Assembly (NCBI RefSeq): GCF_016863275.1
Contig: NZ_BOOO01000015.1
Location: forward strand, 186,001 to 250,000
Direction: 5' to 3'
DNA: 64,000 nucleotides
Source of the DNA: Planotetraspora mira
GTDB taxonomy: Bacteria; Actinomycetota; Actinomycetes; Streptosporangiales; Streptosporangiaceae
Shown: positions 28,609 to 35,650 of the stretch, piece by piece
Numbering within the stretch: position 1 is the first letter of the stretch
Layout: the number at the start of each line of letters is the position of its first letter
Notes under the pieces: model-generated
What the model was told of the DNA's origin: nothing
The model's input: only the letters and a program-made list of their open reading frames with translations
Databases searched by the model: none
Made by a program: the position numbers and the translations under genes

Positions 28609-28692
28609 GGCGTCCTCTCAGGAGGCCCGGGCGACGACGTCCTCGATGGCGGCGTCCTCTCAGGAGGCCCGGGCGAGGACGTCCTCGATGGC
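28609..28692. repeat. 42-bp tandem duplication at the 3' end of a hydrolase gene
   Basis: Two adjacent 42-bp units (28609-28650 and 28651-28692) differ at one base (GCGACGACG versus GCGAGGACG). The right unit holds the last codons and stop of the minus-strand hydrolase; the left unit is an extra copy of that end lying between it and the GMC oxidoreductase stop. A recent slippage or unequal-crossover duplication. Confidence 0.95.
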
Positions 28693-29430
28693 GGCGACCA
28701 CGGTGCCGGGGTTCTTGCTCAGGATCTGCACGTGGTTGCCGGGCGTCGTCGCGAACACCGACACGCGCTCGTTCATCGACACCGCCTCGGCGGCGGTGGC
28801 GCGCATCGTGCGCATCTCCTCCTCCGAGGCGCCCGAGTGCGGTCCGGTGCCGACGACATACACGGCCGGGCATTCCAAAGCCTCGAAGTCGGGGCCGAGT
28901 TCGCCGTTCATGGAGTCCACCTCGATGACGATCTCGGCCGACTCGGCGGGCGTCATCCGGGCCGAACGGCCCAGGGCCGCCATGATGCGCATGATCCAGC
29001 CAAGCCGGCGGAACTGCTTGCGCACGGCTCCCTTGCCCGCCTCGTCGAACATGGAGATCGGGTAGGCGCCGTCGACGAGCACGAGCCCGGCGACCTGCTC
29101 CGGGTGCTCCGCCGCGTACCGCACCGCGATCGTCGCACCGTGGGACCACCCCACCAGGACCGGCCGCTCGATCCCGGTCGCCTCGATCACGCGGCCGATG
29201 TCGTCGATGGCGCCACGGATGGAGTAGTCGGCCGAGGTGCCCGACTTCCCGCGTGCCCGTGCGTCGAACGTGACGGTGCGGTGCCTGCCGCCGAGGCGCC
29301 GGATGACGCCGTTCCAGTGCCGCTGCGTCGCGAACCCGCCGTTGAGGAAGAGCAGCGGACGACCCTCACCGGGAGTCTCGGTGCCGTCGAGCCGGGTGTC
29401 CGCGGCCGGAATGGTGAGCTGACGAGACAT
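28660..29430 (-). CDS. Alpha/beta hydrolase
   Basis: A 256-residue alpha/beta hydrolase with oxyanion region LLFLNGGFATQRHW, nucleophile elbow GWSHG, catalytic acid probably in the GPDFEALECPAVYVVG region and His in TTPGNHVQIL near the C-terminus. ATG 29430 (SRQLTIPAADTRLDG) is chosen because upstream codons run into the preceding gene's spacer. It lies 38 bp downstream of the MarR/GbsR gene on the same strand, a probable two-gene operon. Its last 14 codons are duplicated beyond the stop. Substrate unknown. Confidence 0.85.
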   Translation of the reverse strand: MSRQLTIPAADTRLDGTETPGEGRPLLFLNGGFATQRHWNGVIRRLGGRHRTVTFDARARGKSGTSADYSIRGAIDDIGRVIEATGIERPVLVGWSHGATIAVRYAAEHPEQVAGLVLVDGAYPISMFDEAGKGAVRKQFRRLGWIMRIMAALGRSARMTPAESAEIVIEVDSMNGELGPDFEALECPAVYVVGTGPHSGASEEEMRTMRATAAEAVSMNERVSVFATTPGNHVQILSKNPGTVVAAIEDVLARAS

Positions 29431-30114: not shown

Positions 30115-31662
30115 GTGTCTGAGTTCGACACGGTCCTGGTGGTCGACTTCGGCGCGCAGTACGCGCAGCTGATCGCTCGCCGGGTGCGTGAATGTCACGT
30201 CTACTCCGAGATCGTCCCGTCGACGATGCCGGTGGCGGAGATGCTGGCCAGGAAGCCCAAGGCGATCATCCTGTCGGGCGGCCCCTCGTCCGTGTACGCC
30301 GAGGGCGCCCCGCCGGTCCCCGACGGCCTGTTCGCGACGGGTGTGCCCACCTTCGGCATCTGCTACGGCTTCCAGGCGATGGCGCAGGCGCTGGGCGGGA
30401 CGGTGAACAGGACGGGCGTCGCGGAGTTCGGCGGCACCTCGTTGCAGGTGCTCGGGGACGGCGTGCTGTTCGCCGGGCTGCCGTCCACGCAGTCGGTCTG
30501 GATGTCCCACGGCGACTCCGTCGCCGGAGCCCCGGCCGGGTTCGCCGTCACCGCGTCCACCGAGGCCACGCCGGTCGCCGCGATCGAGAACCCCGACCAG
30601 GGCCTGTACGGCGTGCAGTTCCACCCCGAGGTCCTCCACACCGCGCACGGGCAGACGGTCCTCAAGCACTTCCTCGAGGCGGCCGGATGCCGTCCGTCGT
30701 GGACCATGCTCAACATCGTCGAGGACGCGGTCGCGGCGGTGCGCGAGCAGGTCGGCGACGGCAGGGCGATCTGCGCGCTGTCGGGCGGCGTGGACTCCGC
30801 CGTGGCGGCCGCCATCGTCCAGCGGGCCATCGGCGATCGCCTCACCTGCGTCTTCGTCGACCACGGCCTGCTCCGCAAGGGTGAGGCCGAGCAGGTCGAG
30901 CGCGACTTCGTGGCCGCGACCGGGGTGAAGCTCCGGGTGGTGGACGCCGCCGAGCGGTTCCTCAAGGCTCTGTCCGGGGTGGTCGACCCCGAGGAGAAGC
31001 GCAAGATCATCGGCCGGGAGTTCATCCGCGTCTTCGAGGACGAGCAGCGGGCCATCCTCGCGGACGGCCCGGCGGACTTCCTGGTCCAGGGCACGCTCTA
31101 CCCCGACGTCGTCGAGTCGGGCGGCGGCACCGGCACCGCGAACATCAAGTCCCACCACAATGTGGGCGGACTTCCCGACGATCTTCGGTTCCAGCTGGTC
31201 GAGCCGTTGCGGACGCTGTTCAAGGACGAGGTCAGGCGGGCCGGCGAGGAATTGGGCCTTCCCTCGGCGATGGTCTGGCGGCAGCCGTTCCCCGGCCCGG
31301 GGCTGGGCATCCGGATCATCGGCGAGGTGACCGCCGAGCGGCTCGACATCCTGCGCGAGGCCGACGCCATCGCACGCGAGGAGCTGTCCCGGGCGGGGCT
31401 CGACCGCGACATCTGGCAGTGCCCGGTCGTCCTGCTGGCCGACGTCCGCTCGGTCGGCGTCCAGGGCGACGGCCGCACCTACGGACACCCTGTCGTCCTG
31501 CGGCCCGTCACCTCGGAGGACGCGATGACGGCCGACTGGGCCCGCGTGCCGTACGACGTGTTGTCCCGCATCTCGACCCGGATCACCAACGAGGTCCGCG
31601 AGATCAACCGGGTGGTCGTCGACGTCACCAGCAAGCCCCCCGGCACCATCGAGTGGGAGTAA
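30115..31662 (+). CDS. guaA: GMP synthase (glutamine-hydrolysing)
   Basis: A 515-residue enzyme converting XMP to GMP. The class I glutamine amidotransferase half has the nucleophile cysteine in GICYGFQ and the HPE motif in [11 protein letters not shown]. The ATP pyrophosphatase half has the P-loop [11 protein letters not shown], and the C-terminal dimerisation part ends KPPGTIEWE, the canonical GuaA end. GTG 30115 is chosen to give [23 protein letters not shown] at the N-terminus. It completes the guanine pathway with guaB in this window. Confidence 0.97.
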
Positions 31663-31696
31663 CCCCCCCACACACACCCCACGCACACCCCTCCCG

Positions 31697-31981
31697 CGTG
31701 ATCATGCACAGGTTCGCGGAAATGCCCTCCGACCTGCCCATGCCTCCATCGTGATCATGCACAGGTTCGGCGGCATCCCCAGTGACCTGTCACTTTCCGG
31801 TTCGTGATCATGTGCACTTTCGGTCACGTATCGTCTGACCAGCGCGTATTCCTTTCGTGATCATGCGCGAATTCGTGGATGCGGTGCCTGGGCTGCGGCT
31901 TTCCATCTGTTGATCATGCACAGGTTCGGGAAGGCCGCATCCGACCTGGGGTCATGTGTTTCGTGATCATGCACAGGTTCG
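31697..31981 (+). repeat. Six-unit direct repeat with exact 53-bp period
   Basis: Box A, consensus CGTGATCATGCACAGGTTCG (20 bp), begins at 31697, 31750, 31803, 31856, 31909 and 31962, each exactly 53 bp apart. Copies 1, 2 and 6 are identical; copy 5 differs at two bases, and copies 3 and 4 keep CGTGATCATG and the final TTCG. In the intervening 33 bp, box B (GACCTG, at spacer positions 15-20) is exact in units 1, 2 and 5 and GACCAG in unit 3, GGGCTG in unit 4; the rest varies. 53 bp is about five DNA turns, so the boxes share one helix face. Confidence 0.95.
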
Positions 31982-32012
31982 TCGGCGGCGGCCCATCGGC
32001 AACCGGCTTGTT

Positions 32013-32212
32013 CCTGATCGCGCACGACGACCGCTGTCACCAATTGCATGATCACGCAAGGGGGTGCGTGTGGGCGGGGGAGAGTTGACTGTCACGAATT
32101 GCATGATCACGTGGGAGGTGGCCTTGCCTGCCCACGTGAATGGTGACCTTGGCCTGCCCGCGTGAGGGTGGCGTTTCATGATCATGTGATTTGGGTGAAA
32201 TGCATGATCGTG
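32013..32212. repeat. Degenerate and inverted copies of the array core
   Basis: A degenerate forward copy begins at 32013 (TGATCGCGCAC). The core then appears in opposite orientation as TGCATGATCACG at 32045-32056 and 32100-32111, 55 bp apart, both inside a longer repeat CTGTCAC-S-AATTGCATGATC (32034 and 32089). Two more related sites follow: the 10-bp palindrome CATGATCATG (32177-32186) and TGCATGATCG (32201-32210). The last ends about 67 bp before the acyltransferase start. Confidence 0.85.
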
Positions 32213-32277
32213 GCAGGGGGGAGTGAAAAAGGCGTACATATGGGTGTGGGTCAGGCGTCAGCGGTAAGTTGAGGCTG

Positions 32278-33483
32278 GTGATTGCCACACAGGTCGCCAT
32301 CGCACCCGCACGTACACAGGCCGCCCGCCTCGCCTGGCTGGACGCGTTACGCGGGATCGGTGCGATGGCCGTGGTGGCCGAGCACATGCTTCCGTGGCTC
32401 ATGCCCGCGCTGCGGCCGTACTGGTTCAACCTCGGCATGTACGGCGTGCTGGTGTTCTTCCTGGTCAGCGGGTACATCATTCCGGCGTCCCTGGAACACA
32501 GGGGAGACGTAAGGTCCTTCTGGATCAGCCGCCTCTTCCGCCTCTACCCGCTCTATCTGCTGGTCATCGGGCTCGTCCTCGTCATGGCGATCTGGGTGCC
32601 GGTGCGCATGGAGGTCCCCCGCCGACCGTCATCCGTCGCGGCCCACCTGTCGATGCTGCTCGACGTCGTCCACATGGGCGGGGTCGCCGATCCGATGTGG
32701 ACCCTGTCGTACGAGATGGTGTTCTACCTGATCGTCACCGCGCTCTTCGTAGGCGGCGTGCACAGGCGCAGCGGCATGCTGGCCATCGCGTTCGGTGGTG
32801 CTGCGGTCGCCGCGGGCCTGGTGTTGTCCGCGCCGCTGCTGCCGGGCGAATGGCCGGCCGTCGTGACATGCGTGATCTTTCTCGCCGGCCTCGTCTGCCT
32901 GATCTCGGGCCGGTTCCGGACGACCGCCGCCTACTCCCTGGGCCTGATGGCGCTCGTGCTGCTCATGTTCGGCAGCTACGTGCCCTGGTTCGGCGCGGCG
33001 ATCCTCGCGGTGATGTTCACCGGGACGGCCATCCAGCGCTGGGAGGCGGGCACGGGCGGGCTGACACCGGTCGTGGTGTCGGCGGCGCTGGTGGCCGCCT
33101 CTCCAGTGTGGTCGATCCAGGCGGGCTGGTGGTGGGTCCAGCCGGACGTGTGGATCACGACGATGGCGCTCGCGGGCGGCACGTTCGCCCTTGGGATGGC
33201 GTGGCGGGGCCGCCCCATCCCCGGCGTACTGACGTGGATCGGCCTGATCAGCTACTCGATCTACCTGCTGCACCACCCCCTGCTGCGGGGGCTGAACTCC
33301 ATGATGGGCGACCTCCGAGGCCTGCCGGCCGCGCTTTCGTCGGCCATCAGCCTGGGGTATCTGATCGTGCTCCTCACCTTGAGTTGGCTGACGTACCGCT
33401 TCGTGGAGGCCCCGGCGCAGCGGCTCGGCAAGCGGATCAGCCGTTCGCTGAGGTCCCCGCAGGAGGCGTCCTCCCAAGGGTGA
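32278..33483 (+). CDS. Acyltransferase 3 (OafA/YrhL) family membrane protein
   Basis: A 401-residue integral membrane protein with about ten hydrophobic segments. The N-terminus RLAWLDALRGIGAMAVVAEH matches the LDxLRGxxAxxVVxxH motif of O-acetylating acyltransferases; FLVSGYIIPASL and WTLSYEMVFYL follow. It would transfer acyl groups from the cytosol to an envelope glycan. GTG 32278 is chosen: TAAGTT at 32265-32270 lies 7 bp upstream, suggesting a leaderless start; TTG 32269 is an alternative. It is the first gene of the surface polymer locus and lies directly after the repeat array. Confidence 0.9.
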   Translation: MIATQVAIAPARTQAARLAWLDALRGIGAMAVVAEHMLPWLMPALRPYWFNLGMYGVLVFFLVSGYIIPASLEHRGDVRSFWISRLFRLYPLYLLVIGLVLVMAIWVPVRMEVPRRPSSVAAHLSMLLDVVHMGGVADPMWTLSYEMVFYLIVTALFVGGVHRRSGMLAIAFGGAAVAAGLVLSAPLLPGEWPAVVTCVIFLAGLVCLISGRFRTTAAYSLGLMALVLLMFGSYVPWFGAAILAVMFTGTAIQRWEAGTGGLTPVVVSAALVAASPVWSIQAGWWWVQPDVWITTMALAGGTFALGMAWRGRPIPGVLTWIGLISYSIYLLHHPLLRGLNSMMGDLRGLPAALSSAISLGYLIVLLTLSWLTYRFVEAPAQRLGKRISRSLRSPQEASSQG

Positions 33484-33631: not shown

Positions 33632-35650
33632 ATGAGAACCGGCGACCCGGAGCAGGGCGATTCGAGGGAGGAGGCCGGGGTGGTCCGTTCCGCCTCCCGT
33701 GCGCCGCGGACATGGGGAACGAGCGCCGGTTTCGGCCACTGCCCGGAGTGGCTCGGCCGGGTCGTCGACGGCTTCAGCGGCCCGTGGCACGTCCCGGACG
33801 CGGCCGGTGCGCCGCGAGAGCCGTACGACTGCGTGGTCGTCGCCGTCCGGACACTCAGCGACCTGCGCAGGGTCGTCCCAATGCACAGGCTTCTCCCCAG
33901 TGCCGGACGGGTACGCGTCGCACTGGCCGAGGTGCCCCCATGGGCCACGGAGCCGATTCCCGTCTCCGGGCAGTCGGACGCCTGGCGGCACCTCGCCGAC
34001 CTGCGGATCACTCGTACGACCTCGGGCTGGCACCTCGACGCGTCGTTCGCCGAACCCGTCGCGGCGGGCGAGGTGATCGCCTCAGTGGCGCGCGGCCTTC
34101 TCGGGACGGGCCGTCACATGAGCCAGCCGGTGATCGGCCTCGCGGGCGATCACGCCGACGAGTGGCGGCCCGGCGACGCCAACGCGACACCTGTGGAGCT
34201 CACTCTCCCGCCGCCGGAGCGCCGTGACGCCCCCGGCTGCGACCTGCTCCTCCGCCTCGGCCGAGACCACGACCACGACCACGACCACGACCGGGACCAC
34301 GACCGGGACCACGACCGGGACCACGACCGGGACCACGACCGCGGCCGAGACGGGGGCCGGAGCCGAGACCGGGCCGAAGTGCGTGCCGGTGGTGCCCACA
34401 TCGACCTCGGCGCCGGGCGTGACCACGCCGACCCAGGCCCGCTGCCGCCGGTCGACGAGGCCGTGATCAACCCCATCGGCTTCAAGAGGCACCCCACGGG
34501 TCCCCTCGCGGTGCTCGGCCCGGACTTCGCCGTCACCGGTGGCTCCGACGTGCTCGTACGGCTCGGGCCGCGTGGAGAGCTGACGGACGTCGAGGTGGCC
34601 CGCCTCAGGGACGTCAGGGGCGTGGTGATCCCGTCCTGCGACGGGGCAGGGCCCGCCCCGATCAGGATGGCCTCCGGGGTCACCGCAGGGACCGCGGTCG
34701 CAACTGTCGCCAGGATCGTCGCCGGGCTCGCCGCCGCCGGGGTGCCGGTGATCGCGCGGCCCGACGCGGCTCGCGACGCCGCCCTCGGGCCCGAACTGGC
34801 CGAGGCGGTCGCGGCGGTGGGTGAGGAGGACCTCGCGTCCGACCTCCGGCGTGAGGAGACCGCGATCCGGCTGCGCAGGATCGCACTGCGCGCCCACGGC
34901 GCGGTCGCCCGATGGCGTGCCATCGCCGCATCGGCCGGTCTGCCCGTGCCTCCAGAGCCGATGGTGTCGGTCCTGCTGTGCACCCGCAGGCCGGAGATGA
35001 TCCCTTTCGCGATCCAGCAGATGGAACGCCAGCGCGGGGTGCGGTTGGAGCTCATCGTGGGGCTCCACGGGCTGCCGGCCGGCTCGGTGCCCGCTACGAG
35101 CCTCCCGGTCACGGTGGTCGAGGCCCCCGGCGGTCTGTCCTTCGGGGCACTGCTCAACCGGATGGCGGCCGCGGCCTCGGGGACGTTCCTCGCCAAGGTC
35201 GACGACGACGACTGGTATGGGCCCGACCACCTCGCCGACCTCCTGCTCGCGCAGCTGTACTCCGGTGCGGACCTGGTCGGTTCCGCCCCGGAATTCGTCT
35301 ACCTGGAGCCCATCGACGTGACGATCAGACGGCGTGTCGGCACGGAGCGCTTCGCCCCTTTCGTGGCCGGAGGGACCGTGCTGATCACCCGGGCGATGTT
35401 CGACGCGGTCGGCGGATTCCGGCCCATCCCGCGGACCGTCGACGGGCAGTTGCTCGAAGCCGTGCAGGCCGCCGGTGGCCGGATCTACCGCACCCACGGC
35501 TTCAACTACGTCCTGCGCCGCAGGAACGCGCGCGAGCACACCTGGCGGCCGCCCGTTCAGTCGTTCCTCACGTCCTATGAGGAGCAGTGGCGCGGCCTGG
35601 TCTTCAACGCCCTGATGGAAGATGCTCCGGCGTACGGCAGGCAGAAGTGA
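33632..35650 (+). CDS. GT2-type glycosyltransferase with His/Asp/Arg repeat
   Basis: A 672-residue cytosolic protein. The C-terminal part (from about residue 445) is a GT-A family 2 domain: MVSVLLCTRRPEMIPFAIQQMERQ, then FLAKVDDDDWYGPDHLADLLLA with the metal-binding aspartates and FAPFVAGGTVLITRAMFDAVGG. The first 430 residues are not recognised. Residues 211-237 are a run of alternating Asp with His or Arg, encoded by a 12-bp tandem DNA repeat. The start at ATG 33632 is only moderately supported. The next glycosyltransferase overlaps the stop. Confidence 0.82.
   Translation: MRTGDPEQGDSREEAGVVRSASRAPRTWGTSAGFGHCPEWLGRVVDGFSGPWHVPDAAGAPREPYDCVVVAVRTLSDLRRVVPMHRLLPSAGRVRVALAEVPPWATEPIPVSGQSDAWRHLADLRITRTTSGWHLDASFAEPVAAGEVIASVARGLLGTGRHMSQPVIGLAGDHADEWRPGDANATPVELTLPPPERRDAPGCDLLLRLGRDHDHDHDHDRDHDRDHDRDHDRDHDRGRDGGRSRDRAEVRAGGAHIDLGAGRDHADPGPLPPVDEAVINPIGFKRHPTGPLAVLGPDFAVTGGSDVLVRLGPRGELTDVEVARLRDVRGVVIPSCDGAGPAPIRMASGVTAGTAVATVARIVAGLAAAGVPVIARPDAARDAALGPELAEAVAAVGEEDLASDLRREETAIRLRRIALRAHGAVARWRAIAASAGLPVPPEPMVSVLLCTRRPEMIPFAIQQMERQRGVRLELIVGLHGLPAGSVPATSLPVTVVEAPGGLSFGALLNRMAAAASGTFLAKVDDDDWYGPDHLADLLLAQLYSGADLVGSAPEFVYLEPIDVTIRRRVGTERFAPFVAGGTVLITRAMFDAVGGFRPIPRTVDGQLLEAVQAAGGRIYRTHGFNYVLRRRNAREHTWRPPVQSFLTSYEEQWRGLVFNALMEDAPAYGRQK
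34262..34344 (+). repeat. 12-bp tandem repeat coding the His/Asp/Arg tract
   Basis: A (GACCAC) run then GACCACGACCGG repeated about four times, in frame, giving alternating D-H and D-R dipeptides. Likely variable in copy number by slippage; each gain or loss of 12 bp keeps the reading frame. Confidence 0.85.

Follow-up and report, generated by a model that had tools for sequence, protein, structure and literature searches.

Downstream of a gene of Planotetraspora mira that we take, from its sequence, to be guaA (GMP synthase), six copies of a short sequence follow one another at exactly 53 bp, and the locus raises the question of what so regular an array might do there. The preliminary description of this DNA offered several answers: an iteron-like or nucleoprotein-assembly array, a switch for the neighbouring acyltransferase and surface-polymer locus, or a repeated source of small RNAs. 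Coordinates below are those of the window, the whole stretch of 64,000 nucleotides that was analysed, and genes were called with our own codon-usage caller.

The array at the guaA 3' end

Read from the window sequence, the six cores start at 31697, 31750, 31803, 31856, 31909, and 31962, which confirms the exact 53-bp step. Box A is intact over all of its 20 nt in only three of the six copies (31697, 31750, and 31962); at 31909, its first two bases differ, and the copies at 31803 and 31856 diverge further. The second box that had been described as recurrent, GACCTG, is indeed exact at unit positions 35–40 in units 1, 2, and 5, but it is altered to GACCAG in unit 3 and to GGGCTG in unit 4 and is missing from unit 6. 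Similarly, the inverted cores of the tail are exact at 32045 and 32100, and the further sites claimed there are present but degenerate (32175 and 32201). Allowing at most one mismatch, the core CGTGATCATGCA matches six times in the window, always inside this array; 100 shuffled sequences gave 0.24 matches on average and never as many as six. The features of the locus are as follows:

30115–31662, + strand: guaA, 3' end abutting the array; start codon uncertain, 30043 also possible (gene calls)
31663–31696, + strand: C-rich, G-poor border from the guaA stop codon to the first core (sequence)
31697–31749, + strand: unit 1, box A exact at 31697–31716, GACCTG at 31731–31736 (sequence, core search)
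31750–31802, + strand: unit 2, box A exact, GACCTG (sequence, core search)
31803–31855, + strand: unit 3, diverged box A, GACCAG; no 53-bp unit here in the G004 orthologue (sequence, orthologue comparison)
31856–31908, + strand: unit 4, core CGTGATCATGCG, box B GGGCTG (sequence, core search)
31909–31961, + strand: unit 5, core GTTGATCATGCA, GACCTG (sequence, core search)
31962–32014, + strand: innermost left-arm core, box A exact, then spacer without box B (sequence, core search)
32045–32056, − strand: inverted core of the apparently decayed right arm (core search)
32100–32111, − strand: inverted core of the same arm, 55 bp beyond 32045 (core search)
32175–32186, − strand: degenerate inverted core (core search)
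32201–32212, − strand: outermost degenerate inverted core (core search)
32213–32225, no strand: G-rich right border, mirroring the C-rich left border (sequence, border statistics)
32269–33483, + strand: gene for an acyltransferase-like membrane protein, by our own reading of the sequence (gene calls)

The C-rich left and G-rich right borders go beyond the preliminary description, as do the genome-wide family discussed below and the appearance of the tail, which resembles a right arm that faces inward and has decayed. In G001, the right arm at this place is regular (spacings of 53, 52, and 53 bp), and the array of G004 has exactly one 53-bp unit fewer; in P. phitsanulokensis, one core and one inverted core are left, which may be read as a collapse. 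(G001 is presumably P. thailandica, G002 P. phitsanulokensis, G003 P. kaengkrachanensis, and G004 P. silvatica.) All 12 relatives searched have conserved guaA, and in none of them is there an array at its 3' end; in 10 of the 12, the acyltransferase-like gene follows guaA after a short gap, again with no array. That these 12 relatives lack an array at guaA indicates that the one in the window is probably a gain of the Planotetraspora line. When the RNA of the guaA 3' region was folded, Planotetraspora and the relatives could not be told apart.

The window contains other repeats. A 25-bp tandem repeat (2.6 copies, 32108–32172) lies within the decayed right arm; GACCAC/GACCGG hexamer repeats at 34265–34341 encode a His-Asp-Arg stretch in the open reading frame 33632–35650, which by our own reading resembles a glycosyltransferase; and a 42-bp direct repeat (2.1 copies, 97% alike) occupies 28609–28696, at the junction of two called genes.

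A dispersed family and its distribution

The guaA array is one copy of a dispersed genome-wide family. In the 9.03-Mb genome of P. mira (G000), TGATCATGCACA with at most one mismatch gives 859 matches as against 7 for the reversed control, and the exact pair TGATCATGC-N44-TGATCATGC gives 638 as against 0. This pair is also found in G001 (679), G002 (127), G003 (545), and G004 (644), so that all five genomes of the genus are positive, and a search for box A over the genome and its relatives, as had been proposed, thus recovers the fixed 53-bp period throughout the genome and again in related genomes. Contigs C1 and C2 of P. mira (700 kb contiguous) hold 22 arrays, or roughly 30 per Mb there; the P. 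mira arrays outside C1, C2, and the window, as well as the G004 stretches, were picked because arrays were present in them. An array that is one of so many, at least six others of which enclose apparently unrelated genes (our own reading), is hard to reconcile with a switch dedicated to the acyltransferase or surface-polymer locus. The many dispersed copies also speak against an iteron role in replication, which is unlikely.

Each 53-bp unit consists of the core, a TTCG box, and a GACCTGC box at positions 35–41, with the consensus CGTGATCATGCACAGGTTCG ... TGACCTGC ... A/C at 46–47. Among 621 same-strand neighbours lying 30–80 bp apart, 584 are spaced at exactly 53 bp, 19 at 52, and 1 at 54. 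In P. mira, 34 of the 77 arrays have all their cores in a single orientation, and 11 of these are halves of arrays that bracket a gene; the remainder have both orientations, generally as two inward-pointing arms around a variable centre. Where cores face each other in the Planotetraspora stretches (at most one mismatch and at most 200 bp), they are 21–177 bp apart, start to start, with a mode of 25 (11 cases). Outer units are nearer to the consensus than inner ones: A at position 12 falls from 0.96 at rank 0 to 0.64 at rank 2, and A at position 14 from 0.98 to 0.72.

The 53-bp period was searched for in sets of 60, 338, and 394 genomes. That the array is restricted to Planotetraspora was suggested by the exact pair, which occurs in 0 of 55 genomes of other genera, but this idea is refuted by arrays with drifted cores in the genera g65, g69, and g80. 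The pattern GTGATCNTGNA-N41-43-GTGATCNTGNA matches 15 of 338 genomes of the family, with a reversed control of 0 throughout: all 5 of Planotetraspora, 1 of 1 in g65 (352 sites), 2 of 2 in g80 (25 and 136 sites), 5 of 15 in g69 (3–193 sites), 1 of 1 in g72 (2 sites), and one genome in g6, whose single site has no GACCTG and is probably due to chance. The cores differ between genera (CGTGATCATGCACAGGTTCCCG in g65, CGTGATCTTGCAGAAACTCGCA in g80, and CGTGATCTTGTAGTTTGTCGCA in g69), and P. thailandica has mainly ..CAGAAGTTCG (23 of 30 units, at loci selected via a 52-bp pattern); a scan of contigs with a pattern of 52-bp period returned 75 stretches, all of them from Planotetraspora. Stretches from g65, g69, and g80 share a GACCTGC-like box, the 53-bp period (with some at 52 and 54), inward arms, and C-rich borders. 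The architecture is therefore present in four genera, in which the period and the GACCTGC box have been kept and the core has drifted.

Outside the family, the class-wide draw (394 genomes) contains four genomes that match with other motifs (7, 8, 1, and 1 sites); in G373 and G432, from this draw, GTGATCATGCA pairs lie about 52–54 bp apart with other inner motifs and no GACCTGC in the sites listed. Related cores also occur as inverted pairs, with no match to the 53-bp pattern, in G028, G078, and G075 (genera g25, g58, and g56), mostly 38 bp apart in the first, 28 in the second, and at various distances in the third; these pairs are perhaps a simpler form of the element. Array positions are not shared between P. 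mira (C1, C2, and the window) and G105 at any of nine orthologous gene ends, one bracketed ABC-transporter gene apart (see below). An apparent polarity with respect to the replication strand over 700 kb was rejected for G105, where the sequence has sites on both strands.

Conservation, placement, and borders

Orthologous arrays reveal which parts of the unit are maintained. Flanks of 23 of 29 G004 arrays could be placed in P. mira sequence, and an array was present at all 23 places; a P. mira array likewise corresponds to 16 of the 17 G003 arrays for which the region is comparable, with none at the seventeenth, and the P. mira array at C1:60117 has no core in G003. Over 132 orthologous unit pairs between P. 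mira and G004, spacers are 17.7–18.3% divergent, as against 3.0% for TTCG and 2.7% for the core, values that are low partly by construction since both motifs were used in finding the units. Box B was not so used, and positions 35–41 (GACCTGC) are nevertheless only 6.4% divergent (Fisher p 3e-20 against the spacers, a rough value since the sites share ancestry), so that a second conserved box, as first described, is supported. The spacers outpace both fourfold sites (7.4% over 38,472 sites) and alignable non-array intergenic DNA (4.3%), and they do so mostly by single substitutions (ts/tv 355/190).

The spacing itself behaves differently from the spacers. Gap openings number 9.5 per kb in non-array intergenic DNA, and at this indel rate about 39 of 78 orthologous spacings (78 × 53 bp, in 24 half-arrays) would be expected to have changed; only 3 have. 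This count covers half-arrays of equal unit number with intervals of 40–70 bp, the unit number being unequal in 14 of 38 half-arrays, which were left out. Selection on spacing, which had been proposed from the guaA array alone, thus holds between these two species: array spacers tolerate substitutions, small indels are rare, and whole units are gained or lost. At orthologous places, P. phitsanulokensis has shorter arrays (a mean of 2.7 cores as against 6.5, over 13 intervals) and is probably a natural case of loss; its few units (127 pairs) suggest that the function of the element is dispensable there. The retention of the period, box B, the borders, and the inward layout across the four genera while the core drifts is the pattern expected of a protein–DNA assembly with a selected geometry.

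Most of the arrays lie at gene ends. A gene 3' end is found within 70 bp of 68 of the 77 P. mira arrays; in terms of the nearest called genes, 71 of 77 adjoin at least one 3' end and 6 lie between divergent genes, as against a divergent share of 67/189 among gaps longer than 200 bp in general. The inward 3' sides start at most 60 bp after the stop codon in 72 of 75 cases, and on 20 of the 75, the TGA of the outermost core serves as the stop codon. The 20 nt outside the outermost core are C-rich and G-poor in P. mira (C 0.53 and G 0.18 at 3' ends, n = 50; C 0.53 and G 0.19 at 5' ends, n = 34), in G105 (3' ends: C 0.52, G 0.21, n = 31; 5' ends: C 0.51, G 0.20, n = 17), and in g80 and g69 taken together (C 0.625, G 0.125, n = 14), compared with C 0.365 and G 0.338 in the 30 nt after 705 other stops. 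Since this border is alike beside 3' and 5' gene ends, it seems to be part of the element rather than of the gene. The outermost units match box A at 18.5 of 20 positions beside 5' ends (n = 36) and at 19.1 of 20 beside 3' ends (n = 67), and this near equality suggests that sense transcription does not shape them. Folding is weaker over the first 60 nt past the stop codon where an array follows than at other gene ends (medians of −15.7 and −22.6 kcal/mol, n = 75 and 458, p 7e-10), partly as an effect of the C-rich border; scored by folding alone, this is the opposite of what an intrinsic terminator would give.

Single genes may also be enclosed between inward half-arrays (less than 3 kb). There are nine such cases (six in P. 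mira, two in G004, and one in G105) as against one with outward half-arrays, and both G004 brackets are orthologous to P. mira ones. In four of the six P. mira brackets, units of corresponding rank on either side of the gene include at least one strong match (around a thiolase-like gene, the matches at ranks 0–3 score 25.1, 18.9, 17.7, and 11.1 bits); one of the other two matches out of rank, and one has no clear match. In four of the six, an arm lies 14–36 bp upstream of a called start codon, once within a PadR-ATPase-permease cluster. The functions of bracketed genes are our own reading of their sequences. The gene for the ABC-transporter ATPase has such a bracket in P. mira and also in G105, a genome of another genus, within the same PadR-ATPase-permease order, and was noticed since both had it:

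G000:C22:139001–159000 and G105:C1:520001–540000: inward half-arrays around the ABC-transporter ATPase gene

Possible roles and comparison with known systems

What the arrays do may be approached from these properties. That they act at the level of DNA, through phased protein binding, is the reading that we consider probable, and the nucleoprotein-assembly array of the preliminary description finds support to this extent, by inference from the conserved boxes and spacing. A putative protein would bind the core, TTCG, and GACCTGC boxes; as 53 bp corresponds to five helical turns, bound copies would share one face of the helix, and they might form a stiff multimeric complex. That this binding is combined with a boundary role between genes is plausible, if somewhat short of an even chance. 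The complex would then constitute a boundary at gene ends, where it would hinder RNA polymerase and/or take up converging supercoils; transcripts arriving from either side would have, in the C-rich border, an unstructured, Rho-friendly leader. New array copies probably arose through the copying and inversion of whole arms. We infer the protein, its assembly, and its role in boundary formation, termination, or supercoil handling from patterns in DNA sequence.

The weaker folding after stops, with a C-rich leader on both sides, fits Rho-type termination against a roadblock, and an arm inside an apparent operon or just upstream of start codons speaks against a plain strong terminator. Other observations also count against phased binding with a boundary role: the 34 of 77 arrays in one orientation only (11 of them halves of brackets); the codon GC3, a proxy for expression, which does not differ between genes with a 3'-end array (0.917, n = 72) and others (0.915, n = 1001); the few units of P. 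phitsanulokensis; the RNA folding at guaA, which gave no contrast with the relatives; and, as regards a strictly conserved place, the two arrays left unmatched between P. mira and G003. A more elaborate form of the boundary reading, which is doubtful, would have a predicted dedicated protein, co-evolved with the genus-specific core, on inward phased arms that pair or bridge; arms so joined would isolate the intergenic gap or a whole gene, like convergent architectural sites in eukaryotes.

A close rival of the gene-boundary reading is a DNA-topology element, in which the arrays would attract gyrase or a nucleoid protein to gene ends, in the way of the BIME/REP elements of enterobacteria, and leave transcription unblocked. 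Placement at 3' ends, rarity between divergent genes, and inward symmetry are all consistent with this, as are the near indifference to the direction of the neighbouring genes and the tolerance of an arm within an apparent operon. However, a strict 53-bp period with three boxes is not known to us from gyrase sites. This explanation, taken by itself, is unlikely.

Another possibility is that the arrays are remnants of mobile elements (MITE-like or REP-like), with iterated transposase sites, which spread genus by genus and now only persist. The patchy distribution (15 of 338 genomes of the family) would be explained in this way, as would the array-free guaA 3' ends of 12 relatives and the 0 of 9 G105 array ends shared with P. 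mira, along with the inverted arms, whose units match even around a whole gene. The arms are indeed related: at the outermost rank, likeness within one array averages 5.4 bits (n = 39) as against 0.02 between arrays, and changes between species affect one arm in 116 cases and both in 16 (17 matched unit pairs), so that the arms look like inverted copies that are drifting apart. Neutral relics, however, would not retain spacing and box B while their spacers diverge, and near copies between arrays are rare: of 88,116 unit pairs taken from different P. mira arrays, only 37 score above 25 bits, the top 12 being 11 pairs of innermost centre palindromes and one bracket-arm pair. Inspection of guaA by eye against the array-free relatives revealed no target-site duplication. 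A link to the Y1 transposase (RAYT, PF01797) was rejected, the domain being missing from 7 of 12 array-bearing genomes, including P. mira, and present in 8 of 12 genomes with no match to the 53-bp pattern. The mobile-remnant explanation is accordingly rather improbable.

Less probable again is an RNA-level element, in which transcribed arms would pair as a long stem, ending transcripts or protecting them. The inverted arms are compatible with such a stem, the own partner arm ranks in the best 5% for 9 of 36 full arrays, and 16 positions have changed jointly in both arms; against this stand the 116 one-arm changes, a median rank of 0.24 for the own partner, and the many arrays with a single orientation (34/77). 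The idea that the arms are kept complementary, as RNA or as a cruciform, is weak for the first two of these reasons. Within units, 29 of the 30 strongest position pairs by mutual information (439 units) are no more than 3 positions apart (43–53 is the exception), and ten possible stem pairs (13–23/31–40) reach at most 0.026, compared with 0.035 for the 99% point of the null; a hairpin inside the unit (CAGGT...ACCTG) was rejected on this lack of covariation. Rfam gave no match in 31400–32500, and the proposal of a repeated small-RNA source likewise finds no support.

Finally, it is very improbable that the arrays are CRISPRs, intact or relic, which is what annotation software may make of such regular short repeats with unlike spacers: the spacers bear their own conserved box and diverge by substitution between orthologues, the arms face each other, and in an emulation of CRISPR calling, a 23-nt repeat at 75% consensus is attained by only 2 of 107 half-arrays in P. 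mira. A published table gives 3 to 64 CRISPRs per Planotetraspora genome (4, 15, 3, 18, and 64; PMC11431748); these counts may in part be the present arrays, even though the emulation (half-arrays called: 2/107, 1/26, 0/43, and 1/69) did not reproduce them. The array family calls for caution in CRISPR calling in such genomes.

To return to phased protein binding, the predicted protein, once found, would show how genes are separated or supercoils handled in large-genome actinomycetes, and a natural contrast for finding its gene is provided by P. phitsanulokensis, with its shortened arrays, and by genus g69, which has genomes with and without arrays.

The preliminary description knew of no element with this layout, and likewise no description was found in the open-access literature by motifs, genus, or element type. 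Several known systems share some of its traits. Plasmid iterons and phased operator arrays are direct repeats at multiples of the helical turn, and the likeness is one of layout only: they serve one origin or operator, whereas the present arrays are many and dispersed, with paired inward arms and C-rich borders. CRISPRs have short repeats and unlike spacers of equal length; the array spacers, unlike theirs, carry a common box and mutate mostly by scattered single substitutions, the arms are inverted, and the repeat is mostly too short. MITEs and transposon ends resemble the arrays in their inverted arms, their patchy distribution, and the ability of the arms to bracket a gene, but the arrays have few near-identical copies, no link to a Y1 transposase, and a conserved unit spacing. 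REP and BIME elements prefer gene 3' ends. Those of enterobacteria and pseudomonads are, like the arrays, dispersed intergenic repeats in high copy and mixed orientations, and the arrays are themselves intergenic, mostly at gene 3' ends (68/77), and numerous (22 in 700 kb). REPs are described as palindromes of 20–40 bp that alternate in orientation in BIMEs (PMC3733652, PMC2817692) and are tied to tyrosine transposases (PMC2817692), with hypothesised roles in supercoiling, termination, or mRNA stabilisation (PMC3733652). The arrays differ from them in having 53-bp units with three boxes, strictly phased and facing inward, with neither stem covariation nor a RAYT link.
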